Positions 5,522 to 10,204 of a stretch of DNA of 64,000 bases are shown here, piece by piece (positions within the stretch are counted from its first letter, which is position 1; every line of letters begins with the position of its first letter). The stretch comes from an uncultured Cycloclasticus sp. Lineage in GTDB: Bacteria > Pseudomonadota > Gammaproteobacteria > Methylococcales > Cycloclasticaceae. A program made the translations under genes and the position numbers. The stretch is taken from contig CAJXOJ010000003.1 in NCBI GenBank assembly GCA_913057515.1, positions 1 through 64,000 of the forward strand, given 5' to 3'. The notes under the pieces were generated by a model that did not search any database, was not told the origin of the DNA, and was given only the letters and a program-made list of their open reading frames with translations.

Positions 5522-5923
5522 ATGTTGACTGTAGTTATTTGTTTAACTTGTATTGCTTTTATGCCTTATTTGGCCTCATCAATTGGTGGCTATTACCGAA
5601 TTTCACAAAAAGGTAAATATGACCTTGTTAACCCGCGTGTGCAAGCCGCAACATTAGAGGGTGCAGGTGCTCGTTCACAATATTTACATGCCAACTGTTG
5701 GGAAGCCTTAGGCCTATTTTCAGCCGCTGTATTAGCTGTTTTTATTACCAATACGATAAATGAAACGGTTGCTATGCTTTCGATTTCTTTTGTTGTTATA
5801 CGCGGCGTTTACTTTATTGCCTATTTAACCAATATGGCAACGTTACGTTTCAGCGCTTTTGGGCTGGGCTTTGCTTGCTGTGCGGGCCTTTTTTATACAG
5901 CATTAACTACCATTCCTGCCTAA
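5522..5923 (+). CDS. MAPEG family membrane protein
   Basis: A 133-residue integral membrane protein with four predicted helices (about residues 2-22, 60-77, 82-102 and 108-130). It has the family pattern of a first-loop segment (NPRVQAATLEGAGARSQYLHANCWEAL) carrying polar Glu, Arg and Asn residues that bind glutathione in eukaryotic relatives. Bacterial MAPEG proteins of this length resemble YecN or microsomal glutathione transferase, but few have a known reaction. A purine-rich site (GAGAGAGGAG) lies just upstream of ATG 5522. It is followed by a perfect hairpin at 5931-5965 and is probably a single-gene unit, not part of the dioxygenase operon. Confidence 0.85.
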   Translation: MLTVVICLTCIAFMPYLASSIGGYYRISQKGKYDLVNPRVQAATLEGAGARSQYLHANCWEALGLFSAAVLAVFITNTINETVAMLSISFVVIRGVYFIAYLTNMATLRFSAFGLGFACCAGLFYTALTTIPA

Positions 5924-6107: not shown

Positions 6108-7358
6108 ATGACAGTAGAACGTGATTATGATGACTTGGCTAGAATAGATCGAACGCATGTCAGCTTGTATAACGATCAAGGTGTGTATAGCGATGAAATG
6201 GAACGAATTTTTTATCGGTCTTGGATTTATGTTGCACACGAAAGTGAAATTCCGAATCCGGGTGATTACAAAACGACCTTTATGGGTGATGTTCCCGTTA
6301 TTGTAACGCGCAGTGAAAATAATGAAATAAACGTTGTTATTAACCGTTGTACTCACCGCGGGGTAGCAGTGTGTCCTTTAGAGAAAGGTAATACCCCTAG
6401 TTTTGTTTGCCAATACCATGGCTGGGAATTTGGTATGGACGGTGAATTATTAGCGGTGTCTATGCCAAGAGGTTATAACGAAGGTGAACTAGACTTTAAA
6501 AGTTTAGGCTTAGTATCAGCTAAAAAAGTTGAAAGTTATCGAGGTATTATTTTTGCGTCGCTTCTATCTGTTCCTGATATTTCATTAGATGAAAAACTAA
6601 GAGGCGTGAAAGAGTACATAGATATGTACATGGACTTTTCCCCCGTTGGCGAAATTGTCGTGGGTAATAGCGGGGTGAATAAACATTACTATAATGCTAA
6701 CTGGAAAATTCAAACAGAAGGCAGTGTAGAAGGCTACCATGCACCGGTTACTCATGCTACGGCCTTTGATATTATGATCAGAAAAATGGGCATGCCCGAT
6801 AACTACCAAGGGTACGGCACAAAAGGCATGGATGGTGGCTATGGTAATAATTTATTAGAAGTGTATAGCTTGCCTGATGAAGCGGTTTATAAACGTTGGC
6901 CAGCTGAATATATAGACTTAATGATTGAAAAACACGGCAAAGAGCGCGCAATGCATGTGTTACGTCACCGTTTTAATTTAGTGATTTTTCCGAACTTAGC
7001 CCTACTTGAATATCAATTCCGAGTCATTCGCCCTATGGGGGTTGATAAAACAGAAGTGCGTATGTATCACACGATGCTGAAGGATGCGCCTGATGAGATT
7101 AATACTCGACGAGTACGAGAACATGAGTTCTTTTATAGCCCTGCCGCCTTTGGTGGGCCAGATGACTATGCGATGTTTGATAGAGCTGGTCAGGGCATGA
7201 AGGCAGAGATGGTGCCGTGGATTTTATTTAACCGTGGTATTAAATCTGAAGAAGTTGATGAGCATGGGCGTCGTTATGGTGGGCATACGCAAGAAACACA
7301 GCAAAGAGCACCTTATTTTGAGTACAGACGTTTAATGAAATTAGGGAGCCAATCATGA
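6108..7358 (+). CDS. Rieske ring-hydroxylating oxygenase, alpha (large) subunit
   Basis: A 416-residue oxygenase component. The Rieske [2Fe-2S] motif is complete: CTHRG (C81, H83) and CQYHGW (C101, H104). The catalytic domain has NWK at 198-200, then EGSVEGYH with H211, H216 and a C-terminal DD at 352-353 as the probable third ligand of the mononuclear iron. The residue expected to be the bridging Asp is Glu208. The adjacent beta subunit supports an alpha-beta oligomer attacking an aromatic or related ring with O2. No ferredoxin or reductase gene is adjacent, so electrons must come from proteins encoded elsewhere. The start ATG has GAGGAGAG upstream. Substrate unknown. Confidence 0.93.
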   Translation: MTVERDYDDLARIDRTHVSLYNDQGVYSDEMERIFYRSWIYVAHESEIPNPGDYKTTFMGDVPVIVTRSENNEINVVINRCTHRGVAVCPLEKGNTPSFVCQYHGWEFGMDGELLAVSMPRGYNEGELDFKSLGLVSAKKVESYRGIIFASLLSVPDISLDEKLRGVKEYIDMYMDFSPVGEIVVGNSGVNKHYYNANWKIQTEGSVEGYHAPVTHATAFDIMIRKMGMPDNYQGYGTKGMDGGYGNNLLEVYSLPDEAVYKRWPAEYIDLMIEKHGKERAMHVLRHRFNLVIFPNLALLEYQFRVIRPMGVDKTEVRMYHTMLKDAPDEINTRRVREHEFFYSPAAFGGPDDYAMFDRAGQGMKAEMVPWILFNRGIKSEEVDEHGRRYGGHTQETQQRAPYFEYRRLMKLGSQS

Positions 7359-7864
7359 GTGCTAATAATTCAGAACAAATGACAAGAGCTGAAGCGGAAG
7401 ACTTTTTATTTGCTGAAGCGTGTTTACTTGACCAAGGCGAGGTGAATGAGTGGAGAAAGCTATTCACTGCCGATGCACTATATTGGTTACCTTATAGCCG
7501 TGATGTCAATGTTGACCCAACAAAACATGTATCCATTATTTATGATGACATGGAGATGCTTGATGAGCGCATTAAACGGCTTCAAAGCGGCGCTTGCCAT
7601 GCACAAATACCTGGCTCAAGAACGCAACATTCAGTAAACAACGTACGGGTAAAAACAGTGGATGGTGTTGTTATTATTGACTCATACCTTACTTTGCATG
7701 AGTACCGTGCTAATCGACAAGATAGGTTTTACCCATTGCAAACAATGGCGGCTAATTGCGAGCACAAATTAGTTAAGCAAGACGGTGAATGGAAAATGAC
7801 CAGTAAGAAAGTCGTGCTGCTGAATTGTGATGGTGAAATATACGACTTAAGCTTTTTAATATAA
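7355..7864 (+). CDS. Rieske ring-hydroxylating oxygenase, beta (small) subunit
   Basis: A 169-residue protein of the ring-hydroxylating dioxygenase beta family, which has a cone-shaped NTF2-like fold without cofactors. Typical features are the N-terminal helix with FLFAEACLLDQGEVNEWRKL, the DALYWLPYSRD strand and the C-terminal KKVVLLNCDG segment. Family members are usually 160-190 residues. Its ATG at 7355 overlaps the alpha-subunit stop (ATGA), so the two are translationally coupled and probably made in equal amounts. Beta subunits stabilise the oligomer and sometimes tune substrate range. Confident call. Confidence 0.92.
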   Translation: MSANNSEQMTRAEAEDFLFAEACLLDQGEVNEWRKLFTADALYWLPYSRDVNVDPTKHVSIIYDDMEMLDERIKRLQSGACHAQIPGSRTQHSVNNVRVKTVDGVVIIDSYLTLHEYRANRQDRFYPLQTMAANCEHKLVKQDGEWKMTSKKVVLLNCDGEIYDLSFLI

Positions 7865-7877
7865 ATAAGGGGTAGTA

Positions 7878-8342
7878 ATGACTGATATGGACAATAAATA
7901 TGCCGATGGTTTTCCTTTTTCTCGTGAAGGGGAGGACTTTAAGCAAGGCCTATCGTTGATGCGCGAAGTGCTGGGAGAAGAATCCTCTGAGCATATTGAA
8001 TCTTTGCTGGATAACCCTCTGTTTGGTGATGAGCTGGGCTATGTTTTTTCTAAAACTTGGGGGGCTTTATATGAGCGAGAAGGTTTAACGTTAAAAGAAA
8101 GGTCGTTGATCTTAATGGGCACTGATTTAGCATTAGGACGTGAAGGGCCGTTAAAAGATCATATGAAGGTCGCGTTGCATGCTGGGATGAAGCCTAAGCA
8201 AATTATCGAGGTTTTATTCCAAACCGTTTTTTACTTAGGAGCGCCTGCAATGGTACTAGGCTTAAAGGTAGCTAATGAGGTTTTGGGCCCAGAAATAAAA
8301 GAAATGCTCGAGCAAAAAGAACAACAAAATAACAATCAATAG
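7878..8342 (+). CDS. Carboxymuconolactone decarboxylase-like protein
   Basis: A 154-residue, mostly helical protein of the CMD/AhpD-like superfamily. It shows LTLKERSLILMGTDLALGREGPLKDHM, then VALHAGMKPKQIIEVLFQTVFYLGAPA, the family pattern in which a conserved His (ALHAG) precedes the YxGxPA-type helix. The CxxC pair of AhpD peroxidases is absent, so a thiol-redox role is unlikely; a decarboxylase or lactone-type role fits better. It sits 13 bases after the beta subunit with GGGGTAG as ribosome site, inside the catabolic operon. It may act on a later acid or lactone intermediate. The reaction is not known. Confidence 0.8.
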   Translation: MTDMDNKYADGFPFSREGEDFKQGLSLMREVLGEESSEHIESLLDNPLFGDELGYVFSKTWGALYEREGLTLKERSLILMGTDLALGREGPLKDHMKVALHAGMKPKQIIEVLFQTVFYLGAPAMVLGLKVANEVLGPEIKEMLEQKEQQNNNQ

Positions 8343-8351
8343 GAGGAAGTA

Positions 8352-8858
8352 ATGAGTGATTTAGACATTAGTATGGGCCCTATCAACCATGTGGCAATGG
8401 CAGTAAAGGACTGGAGAGCAACTGCAAAAAGCTATGCTAAGTTAATGGGTATAAAAACATGGCGAGTGATGGAAATTTCATCAGATATGATGGAAACATC
8501 TGAATATTATGGTGAGCCAGCTGAATTTGTTTGGATATCGGCCTTTGCACGGATGGGCGATACCTTGATCGAATTGTGCGAGCCGGTTTCTGGTAAAACC
8601 GTGTTTGATGACTTTGTTAAAGAACACGGTGATGGCATGCAACATGTGGGTGATTTATCACACCCTAACCCATTAGAGTTAGTTAAAGAATATACTCGCC
8701 AAGGGGTAAAAGTTGGGAATTATTGCAATATTGCAGGGGTTGCAGAACTTTATTACTTAGACACACGTGAGCAATTAGGCGGGATGTTCCTAGAAGTGGT
8801 TGCACCACCGACATACGCACGAATTGCCGACCTTGGTGAAGATGTTACGTTTGATTAA
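8352..8858 (+). CDS. VOC (glyoxalase/extradiol dioxygenase superfamily) protein, single domain
   Basis: A 168-residue vicinal-oxygen-chelate protein with paired beta-alpha-beta-beta-beta modules. The four expected metal ligands can be placed: H13 (INHVAMAVKD), E74 (TLIELCEP), H98 (GMQHVGD) and E148 (MFLEVVAP). His/Glu/His/Glu is the arrangement of glyoxalase I and methylmalonyl-CoA epimerase relatives; ring-cleaving extradiol dioxygenases use His/His/Glu. So an isomerase, epimerase or lyase is more likely than a ring-cleavage enzyme. GGAGGA lies just before the ATG. It is the fourth gene of the Rieske operon and resembles each half of the next gene. Confidence 0.85.
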   Translation: MSDLDISMGPINHVAMAVKDWRATAKSYAKLMGIKTWRVMEISSDMMETSEYYGEPAEFVWISAFARMGDTLIELCEPVSGKTVFDDFVKEHGDGMQHVGDLSHPNPLELVKEYTRQGVKVGNYCNIAGVAELYYLDTREQLGGMFLEVVAPPTYARIADLGEDVTFD

Positions 8859-8886
8859 TAACAATAATAATTTTAAGGGGAAATAA

Positions 8887-9939
8887 ATGGCATTAAGCAT
8901 ACCTATAGACGGCTGGCATAGTACCTCCATAGTGGTTCGTGACTACCGCCAAGTGGTAACCAATTACGCACGATTTTTTGGTATTAGTCACTGGGAAGTT
9001 TTTCGTTATGACGGTAACCATCTAGCAAATACGCGCTTTGAAGGTGAATTGGTTGAGCACCGCTATATACGAGTTATGGGGCGAAATAAAGATTTAGCCA
9101 TAGAGTTAATACAGCCTATTGACGGGCCATCTAGCTTTCAACATATGTTAGACACAGTTGGCGAAGGCGTACACCATGTCAGCCTGACTCAATCAACTGA
9201 ATTTGATGTCGATGCATTGAATAAAACACTCGATGAACTAGACATTAGTATACGTCAAAGTGGCACTATTTATGATGTGGCAGATGTTTATTTATTAGAT
9301 ACGCGTTCGTTGGTCTCCAATGTGATGTTTGAAGTGGTTTGCCCAAAAACAGAAAATTGGCAAGCATCCATGAAACCCGATGAAGTGTTTGATATTGACC
9401 TGGCGCTATTAGGTCCAACATTATTACCAACAGCCAATATGTTACACCTTGGGGTGGTTTGTAAAGATAGGGATGTGGCCAAGGCAGGCTTAACGAAATT
9501 ATTCTCAATGACAGATTGGATTGAATTTAAAATTGAATCGGGTGTCACCATGAGCGACACGACGTACTTTGGTGAACAGGTTTATCATAAATATAATAAC
9601 CATGTGGGCCGCGTGGGTGAGTTTGCCTTAGAGCTCATTACCCCAGAGTCAGATAAATGCGTGTATTACGATTTCTTAAAAGAACAGGGTGAAGGAGCGC
9701 ATCATTTCTTTCCTTCAATGTGCTCAAAGGAAGAGTTTGAAGCCCTTTTGCCGGGTTTAGAAGCGCTAGGTATGCCTATTATTCAAGGCGGTACTATAGA
9801 TGGGTTGATAGAGTATTATTACATCGATACGCGAGACTATTTATCAGGGGTGACCACCGAAATAGTGATTCCGTTATGTGATGACTGGAAAGAAAAAATG
9901 TTCAGCTCAGAGAAAGAAGCGTGGGTACTTTGTGGTTAA
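8887..9939 (+). CDS. Tandem two-domain VOC family protein
   Basis: A 350-residue protein made of two VOC units. In the first (about 1-165) the metal ligands are probably H11, E73, H97 and E149. In the second (about 183-340) they are H187, E249, H273 and E325. Both halves share local patterns: GEGVHHVS and GEGAHHFF, YLLDTR and YYIDTR, then a Glu-containing last strand. Because both sites look intact, each half may be catalytic, or the halves may form one intramolecular dimer. It closes the Rieske operon and is followed by a strong terminator. The relation to the preceding single VOC gene suggests duplication and fusion. Reaction unknown. Confidence 0.85.
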   Translation: MALSIPIDGWHSTSIVVRDYRQVVTNYARFFGISHWEVFRYDGNHLANTRFEGELVEHRYIRVMGRNKDLAIELIQPIDGPSSFQHMLDTVGEGVHHVSLTQSTEFDVDALNKTLDELDISIRQSGTIYDVADVYLLDTRSLVSNVMFEVVCPKTENWQASMKPDEVFDIDLALLGPTLLPTANMLHLGVVCKDRDVAKAGLTKLFSMTDWIEFKIESGVTMSDTTYFGEQVYHKYNNHVGRVGEFALELITPESDKCVYYDFLKEQGEGAHHFFPSMCSKEEFEALLPGLEALGMPIIQGGTIDGLIEYYYIDTRDYLSGVTTEIVIPLCDDWKEKMFSSEKEAWVLCG

Positions 9940-9965: not shown

Positions 9966-10002
9966 AAAAAAGCCATGCGTTTAACTTAAGCATGGTTTTT
10001 TT
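9966..10002 (+). terminator. Rho-independent terminator of the Rieske/VOC operon
   Basis: CCATGC (9973-9978) pairs with GCATGG (9990-9995). The stem is extended by a G-U pair and an A-run opposite the T-run. Seven T residues follow at 9996-10002. It lies 26 bases after the last VOC gene and is a clean intrinsic terminator. Confidence 0.85.
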
Positions 10003-10204
10003 GTTGCTATCGGGCTTCTTTAAACAAGCTATAAATTTTATAAGGGCGAATATTAAGGATGCTCATTAACGCCACTTATAGTCTTCTTGTTTGTGCTAAT
10101 ATGCGCGCTCTGTCCAATAGCTTGGAAGGATTCCTAACGAAGCATTTTGGGCAATACGGATCACACACTCTTATCTCGCATCTTAAATAAAGGCAATAAA
10201 TATC

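Follow-up and report, generated by a model that had tools for sequence, protein, structure and literature searches.

The window analysed, a stretch of 64,000 nucleotides from an uncultured Cycloclasticus sp., carries five open reading frames on the forward strand at positions 6108-7358, 7355-7864, 7878-8342, 8352-8858 and 8887-9939. The first two overlap by 4 bp, and the following ones are separated by gaps of 13, 9 and 28 bp. In gene order, Pfam assigned the products to Rieske plus Ring_hydroxyl_A, Ring_hydroxyl_B, CMD (carboxymuconolactone decarboxylase), Glyoxalase_4 and again, in two stretches, Glyoxalase_4. The five-gene Rieske operon (alpha, beta, CMD, VOC, tandem VOC) proposed in a preliminary description is thus real, its order and coordinates being supported by the reading frames and the Pfam matches, and it is kept in nine genomes. 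A likely intrinsic terminator was read from the sequence at the operon end (9970-10003, forward strand; GCCATGC, an 11-base loop, GCATGG and a T-run), which a consensus scan with a loop limit of 8 did not flag. The operon is flanked on one side, directly upstream, by a gene for a MAPEG-family membrane protein (5522-5923, forward strand; Pfam MAPEG) and on the other side by an unrelated short gene. Within the genus, MAPEG copies of at least 74% identity occurred only in four of the five operon-holding Cycloclasticus genomes, and there was no MAPEG match at the operon locus of TR3.2, a member of the Immundisolibacter family; an association of the MAPEG protein with the operon is possible, in Cycloclasticus only. 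A recent transfer was also considered on the basis of odd base composition, however, the GC content of the operon (41.3%) matches that of the window (41.2%), and there is therefore no compositional sign of such an event.

The first gene (6108-7358, forward strand) encodes a Rieske oxygenase alpha subunit of 416 aa. An alignment of 51 alpha subunits placed its Rieske ligands at C81/H83/C101/H104 and the ligands of the catalytic iron at H211/H216/D353, all of which are invariant in nine orthologues. The protein has the Rieske CxH...CxxH motif and the His-His-Asp iron site of alpha-beta Rieske enzymes, and the adjoining gene (7355-7864, forward strand) encodes a beta subunit of 169 aa (Ring_hydroxyl_B, PF00866, 81.8 bits). 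However, the conserved aspartate that connects the Rieske cluster with the catalytic iron, present in nearly all other alphas compared, is replaced by Glu208 (codon 6729-6731, within the aligned motif EGSVEGYH....H at 6717-6755, forward strand), and Gly205 is found where Asn is usual. The oxygenase is therefore counted as a variant and not as a standard alpha-beta member. This substitution, on which the preliminary description had been silent, is an added finding of the present analysis and was shared by 9/9 orthologues and three alphas of a sister clade (about 55% identity). We also considered whether glutamate bridges are common among alpha-beta enzymes. A scan of 369 genomes for EGYH, a motif requiring Gly after the bridge, argued against this: 15 loci with such an alpha were retrieved (each reaching to about 1.5 kb; some matches yielded no locus), and a beta gene was nearby in only three, all belonging to the operon's group. 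The alpha subunit groups among aromatic-type alphas, where it branches deeply as a distinct clade that has a bridging residue of its own. It shares 32-38% identity with benzoate/anthranilate-type and other short plasmid-borne alphas and scored below the equivalog cut-offs for benzoate dioxygenase (TIGR03229, 220 versus 780.95 bits) and anthranilate dioxygenase (TIGR03228, 196.5 versus 671.9 bits).

Searches against Pfam and NCBIfam identified no ferredoxin, reductase, dehydrogenase or regulator family among the five operon genes. Alongside about 19 oxygenase alphas, the genome encodes one pair of Rieske ferredoxin and reductase, located at the PAH locus on contig C15. Cycloclasticus P1 requires one pair of this kind for naphthalene, phenanthrene and pyrene (PMC8547461). 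Thus, the absence of electron-transfer genes from the operon had been described correctly but is no sign of oddity, as it is the ordinary situation where some 19 alphas share a single pair.

The third gene (7878-8342, forward strand) encodes a PcaC-like gamma-CMD protein of 154 aa (Pfam CMD, 50.6 bits), which reached 63.7 bits against the PcaC equivalog TIGR02425 (cut-off 155.7). That it is devoid of a CxxC had been rightly pointed out but is unremarkable, as gamma-CMD proteins lack the CxxC of AhpD (PMC3141380). The next gene (8352-8858, forward strand) encodes VOC1, a single-domain VOC protein of 168 aa (Glyoxalase_4). In all four Immundisolibacter-family loci examined, CMD and VOC1 form one reading frame, indicating that their functions are linked, and this fusion in relatives supports the notion that both may contribute to a joint step after the oxygenase.

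VOC1 has a putative metal site, H13/E74/H98/E148, which is invariant in 9/9 orthologues. In the tandem VOC protein VOC2 (8887-9939, forward strand; 350 aa, Glyoxalase_4 twice), the corresponding site of the C-half (H187, E249, H273, E325) is invariant in 8/8 orthologues and that of the N-half is not retained: the first ligand position is Ser12, in the Immundisolibacter family Tyr-Gly or Phe-Gly stands in place of the third-position His-His, and in the genomes G414 and G805 Lys replaces the last Glu. Judged by these residues, the N-half looks metal-free and would be structural. The His/Glu/His/Glu arrangement of epimerase/glyoxalase-type VOC proteins, earlier ascribed to all three VOC domains, holds for VOC1 and the C-half of VOC2 but fails for the N-half. 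With this arrangement, the two intact sites differ from the His/His/Glu iron site of extradiol enzymes, and neither Pfam nor NCBIfam yielded an extradiol-family match for the VOC proteins. In sequence searches, both matched the putative methylmalonyl-CoA epimerase 3gm5, so that the earlier view of the sites as epimerase/glyoxalase-like and unlike extradiol sites was borne out by residues and matches alike. Both proteins scored 33 bits against the methylmalonyl-CoA epimerase family TIGR03081, below its cut-off of 114.95. A low-confidence model of VOC1 (mean pLDDT 57, shallow alignment) matched the methylmalonyl-CoA epimerases 3gm5, 6bu2 and 6qh4, which is suggestive of a structural kinship; among solved structures, such epimerases, in part putative, are the closest relatives of VOC1. 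The model of VOC2 was a weak prediction (mean pLDDT 35.5, shallow alignment).

Of 18 Cycloclasticus genomes, five carried the five domains in identical order, as did four of the seven from the Immundisolibacter family, TR3.2 being one of these four. Identity of these nine operons to the window ranged from 63 to 97% for alpha and from 50 to 97% for VOC2, and dN/dS values of 0.012-0.103 across all five genes indicated strong purifying selection. Conservation of order and content in nine genomes of two families at such low dN/dS is far beyond chance, and CMD, VOC1 and VOC2 accompanied alpha-beta at every complete locus seen in both families. Full-length relatives of the tandem VOC protein with at least 49% identity were restricted to Cycloclasticus and the Immundisolibacter family among 369 genomes of the class, 398 of the phylum, the PLSDB plasmids and the GTDB contigs, the contig scan being based on exact peptides and not exhaustive, as it missed TR3.2. 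The five-gene set is common so far only to Cycloclasticus and a soil family of PAH degraders, and its hosts, the marine, oil-degrading Cycloclasticus and TR3.2 (PMC5054325), are PAH degraders. All NCBIfam equivalog scores were far below the cut-offs, and the open-access papers searched contained no description of the set (Cycloclasticus with glyoxalase gave no match, combinations of CMD and Rieske only unrelated work). The results support that the gene set has no counterpart among the curated families and pathways covered here, and, as the preliminary description had suspected, it is undescribed.

That description had also suggested a look at the flanks in other genomes, and the adjoining genes were MAPEG in the window and a benzoate-dioxygenase-like alpha/beta pair in the Immundisolibacter family, the latter at 4/4 loci. 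The Cycloclasticus orthologue of this pair (C26-type) lies near genes that, read from their sequences, are CoA ligase-, thiolase-, SDR- and enoyl-CoA hydratase-like, and within the genus it was present in 3/5 operon holders versus 0/13 non-holders. However, genome G014 (99% complete) holds the operon without a C26-type oxygenase (best match 45%). Such a partner is therefore not required, which weakens the idea of an obligate association.

We favour, at a probability of roughly 45% including the whole scheme that follows, that the five genes form one operon and serve PAH-degrading Gammaproteobacteria as an accessory catabolic module. Alpha and beta would form a Rieske oxygenase, probably alpha3-beta3, with electrons supplied by the cell's shared ferredoxin/reductase and Glu208 replacing the usual Asp in passing them from the Rieske cluster to the catalytic iron. 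In the order of steps that we infer, the oxygenase would hydroxylate an intermediate that is either aromatic or partly reduced and is probably a carboxylic acid. An isomerisation or epimerisation by VOC1 and the VOC2 C-half would follow, in which a proton adjacent to a carbonyl or enol is shifted, and CMD, linked to VOC1 in relatives, may decarboxylate or open the product. A more far-reaching version, in which this is the first recognised Glu-bridged alpha-beta clade in a PAH-derived pathway and a CMD-VOC complex in lieu of a diol dehydrogenase would rearrange and decarboxylate the product without NAD, appears unlikely. Counted against the module are the very broad nature of the CMD and VOC families, the missing C26-type partner in G014 and the weak structure predictions (pLDDT 57 and 35.5).

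Part of the evidence would also suit an ordinary aromatic-acid dioxygenase, with diol dehydrogenase, ring-cleavage enzyme and electron donors encoded elsewhere and CMD and VOC as minor helpers in a known route, as scattered pathway genes and a shared ferredoxin/reductase are normal in Cycloclasticus and the alpha retains its 32-38% identity to benzoate/anthranilate-type and other short plasmid-borne alphas. As CMD-VOC1-VOC2 occur with alpha-beta in every complete locus of two families, and alpha is set apart by its deep branching and its bridging residue, we consider this somewhat doubtful. A role of the module on non-aromatic substrates, i.e., naphthenic or terpenoid acids or quaternary amines, would be in line with the other Glu-bridged alphas of the class-wide motif scan, which occurred without a beta gene, and with the characterised Glu-bridged carnitine monooxygenase CntA (PMC7948474). 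However, the operon has a beta subunit and no group V Cys pair, its alpha groups with aromatic-type alphas and its hosts are PAH specialists, which makes this role quite improbable. The lack of a MAPEG match at the TR3.2 locus and of the CxxC needed for peroxidase activity in CMD speak against a detoxification set, in which VOC, CMD and MAPEG would clear reactive side products of PAH oxidation, with the oxygenase scavenging dead-end products. Although glutathione-linked detoxifying enzymes are known from both the VOC and the MAPEG family, and close MAPEG copies were confined to operon holders within the genus, we regard such a function as even less probable.

For the accessory catabolic module, the conserved CMD-VOC link hints at a catabolic step missed by current annotation in two PAH-degrading lineages, one of which is a pyrene-associated soil group. 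With respect to the bridge, CntA is inactive when its glutamate is changed to aspartate (PMC7948474). Naphthalene dioxygenase is inactive when Asp205 is replaced by Ala. The same was reportedly observed by Parales et al. in 1999 upon replacement by Glu. As mutations of the bridging carboxylate inactivate both types tested, an alpha-beta clade with a natural glutamate offers a direct test of how the bridge tunes electron transfer.

Among known systems, the short-alpha (about 415 aa) benzoate/anthranilate 1,2-dioxygenases resemble the operon enzyme in alpha-beta composition, subunit length and intact Rieske and His-His-Asp sites. They differ in having Asp at the bridge and Asn before it in place of Glu and Gly, and the operon has CMD and VOC genes instead of reductase and diol dehydrogenase genes; the score of its alpha for BenA (220 versus 781 bits) is far under the equivalog cut-off. 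In CntA, a group V Rieske enzyme, the bridging residue is likewise a Glu, placed three residues ahead of the first His ligand of the iron (PMC7948474). However, CntA is an alpha3 enzyme that has a Cys-X-X-Cys near the iron and is served by a reductase of its own, whereas the operon combines the group V glutamate with a beta gene and lacks both the Cys pair and a reductase gene. Methylmalonyl-CoA epimerases and glyoxalases share the fold and the H/E/H/E-type metal site with VOC1 and the C-half of VOC2, but VOC2 is a tandem protein whose N-half is degenerate, in relatives VOC1 and CMD are fused, and the TIGR03081 score is low (33 versus 115 bits). PcaC also has a CMD domain without CxxC, but the operon protein stays under the TIGR02425 cut-off, is not near protocatechuate genes and is fused to VOC in relatives. 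Finally, RHD-1 to RHD-3 of Cycloclasticus are encoded in PAH clusters that also comprise ring-cleavage, dehydrogenase or permease genes, whereas the operon stands alone; it would nevertheless use a shared ferredoxin/reductase of the kind that serves them, Fer/FerR (PMC8547461).

The five reading frames that the preliminary description had placed at 6108-9939 were recovered there, tightly spaced on a single strand (plus). By Pfam, they encode, in order, an oxygenase alpha subunit (Rieske and Ring_hydroxyl_A), a beta subunit (Ring_hydroxyl_B), a CMD protein, a single VOC protein (VOC1, Glyoxalase_4) and a tandem VOC protein (VOC2, Glyoxalase_4 in two stretches). Just 3' of the last gene, a GC hairpin leading into a T-run was recognised by eye. 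All matches of the operon proteins to NCBIfam equivalogs were far under cut-off, including BenA (220 of 781), PcaC (64 of 156) and methylmalonyl-CoA epimerase (33 of 115). A search of other genomes, as had been proposed, located the five-gene set in Cycloclasticus congeners and in one outside family. Four congeners (G002, G005, G014, G017) carry alpha orthologues at 89-97% identity and keep the gene order, the G002 contig stopping within VOC2, and dN/dS between the window and congeners was 0.012-0.103 for all five genes, with synonymous sites saturated in some G005 pairs. Outside Cycloclasticus, the set was limited, among the genomes sampled, to the Immundisolibacter family: G320 (strain TR3.2, genus Immundisolibacter), G414, G804 and G805. 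Identities for alpha/beta/CMD/VOC1/VOC2 were 71/45/70/75/58% in G320 and 63/56/57/74/49% in G414. No further full-length relatives were found in 369 class genomes, 398 phylum genomes or PLSDB, which are a sample and not a census. TR3.2 is the first cultured strain of PG2, a pyrene-associated group (PMC5054325).

The most distinctive and testable feature of the operon is the residue bridging the Rieske cluster and the catalytic iron. Among 51 aligned alphas this position, which precedes the first iron-ligand His by three residues, is occupied by Asp except in the operon clade, where it is Glu208 (9/9), and in one further alpha from the window's own genome (contig C65, L056:3829-5109), which is without curated assignment. 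The operon alphas also have Gly for the usual Asn three residues ahead of the bridge. A motif scan (W-K...E-G-Y-H) over 369 genomes identified a second EGSVEGYH clade, about 55% identical, which is represented in G320, G209 and G414 by alpha-beta pairs without CMD or VOC (L111:8908-11873 in TR3.2; L112:8687-10460 in G209). The TR3.2 pair has an adjacent, convergent Fer2-FNR reductase gene, whose product may be its electron donor. In the alpha tree both clades were joined at 100% SH-aLRT, and parsimony required two Asp/Glu changes, the second being the C65 alpha; the branch of the latter is very long (2.9-3.4). A beta gene was in reach in 3 of 15 fetched EGYH-alpha loci, all belonging to the operon/sister group. 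The Asp bridge is regarded as conserved in alpha-beta enzymes (PMC5033481, PMC12445004), and a Glu bridge is a feature of CntA, in which E205D is inactive (PMC7948474). No published Glu-bridged alpha-beta enzyme was found in the open-access literature.

The lack of electron-transfer genes in the operon, earlier singled out as notable, proved to be the norm, because the genome holds 22 Rieske-domain matches, about 19 of them oxygenase alphas, four NAD_binding_1 reductases and a single Rieske ferredoxin, adjoining a reductase on contig C15, and because such sharing occurs elsewhere: Cycloclasticus P1 requires a single Fer/FerR pair to grow on all of naphthalene, phenanthrene and pyrene (PMC8547461), and sharing has also been remarked on for strain PS-1 (PMC11099662). 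The His/Glu/His/Glu metal site ascribed to all three VOC domains held for VOC1 (H13/E74/H98/E148) and the second half of VOC2, VOC2-C (H187/E249/H273/E325), both invariant in the orthologue alignment, but not for VOC2-N, where the first ligand position is Ser and the third ligand is lost in the Immundisolibacter family. The closest solved structure by sequence is 3gm5, titled putative methylmalonyl-CoA epimerase, and a weak VOC1 model agrees with this likeness. CMD and VOC1 are continuous in each of the four Immundisolibacter-family loci, as a single frame of 328-362 codons without interruption; the two have frames of their own in Cycloclasticus, with 9 bp between them. As fusion in one lineage and adjacency in another are standard evidence for such a link, we infer that CMD and VOC1 share a step or complex.

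In 4/4 Immundisolibacter-family loci a benzoate-dioxygenase-like alpha/beta pair adjoins the operon divergently. Its Cycloclasticus orthologue lies on contig C26 beside a DUF2889 gene, near frames that, judged from sequence starts, resemble a CoA ligase, thiolase, SDR and enoyl-CoA hydratase. At 95% identity or more, this pair occurred only in G000 (the window's genome), G002 and G017, all operon holders (3/5 holders, 0/13 non-holders; chance about 0.012 by hand calculation, the related genomes not being independent); G014 is a holder without it. A similar pattern was observed for the MAPEG gene that immediately precedes the operon (5522-5923), whose copies at 74% or more within Cycloclasticus were confined to operon-holding genomes; a set of VWA/TPR/BatD-domain genes also lies upstream.

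Tandem VOCs repeatedly adjoin unrelated oxygenases in the Immundisolibacter family, and a second TR3.2 operon (L041:7777-11240) has genes for a Rieske alpha (457 aa) and a beta, together with an ABM-domain protein and a tandem VOC. On a short G414 contig (C228, L043:827-4617), CMD and tandem VOC again occur together: genes for SnoaL, YCII, gamma-CMD, tandem VOC and a short-chain fatty acid transporter lie in a row there, and the contig has no oxygenase. In G005 (C195, L039:4919-7459, minus strand), an acyl-CoA dehydrogenase and a Rieske alpha are fused in one 847-aa frame, after which come genes for a beta subunit, an NMT1-like protein and an FNR-type reductase. Because the frame contains an ambiguous residue close to the end and its source MAG is 58% complete, the fusion could be an assembly artefact.

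Judged from sequence, the most likely reading, to which we give a probability of roughly 0.45, is that the operon is an accessory module, in which the alpha-beta enzyme would hydroxylate the substrate, VOC1 and VOC2-C would carry out one or more proton shifts, and CMD would decarboxylate the product or open its ring. Our best guess for the substrate is a carboxylated PAH intermediate, since the alpha is akin to aromatic-acid oxygenases and the hosts degrade PAHs. An NAD-free rearrangement of the oxygenase product forms the speculative end of this proposal and is rather unlikely. The operon itself is real and conserved, and it is undescribed in the literature and databases searched; its parts are known, and their combination is a variant.
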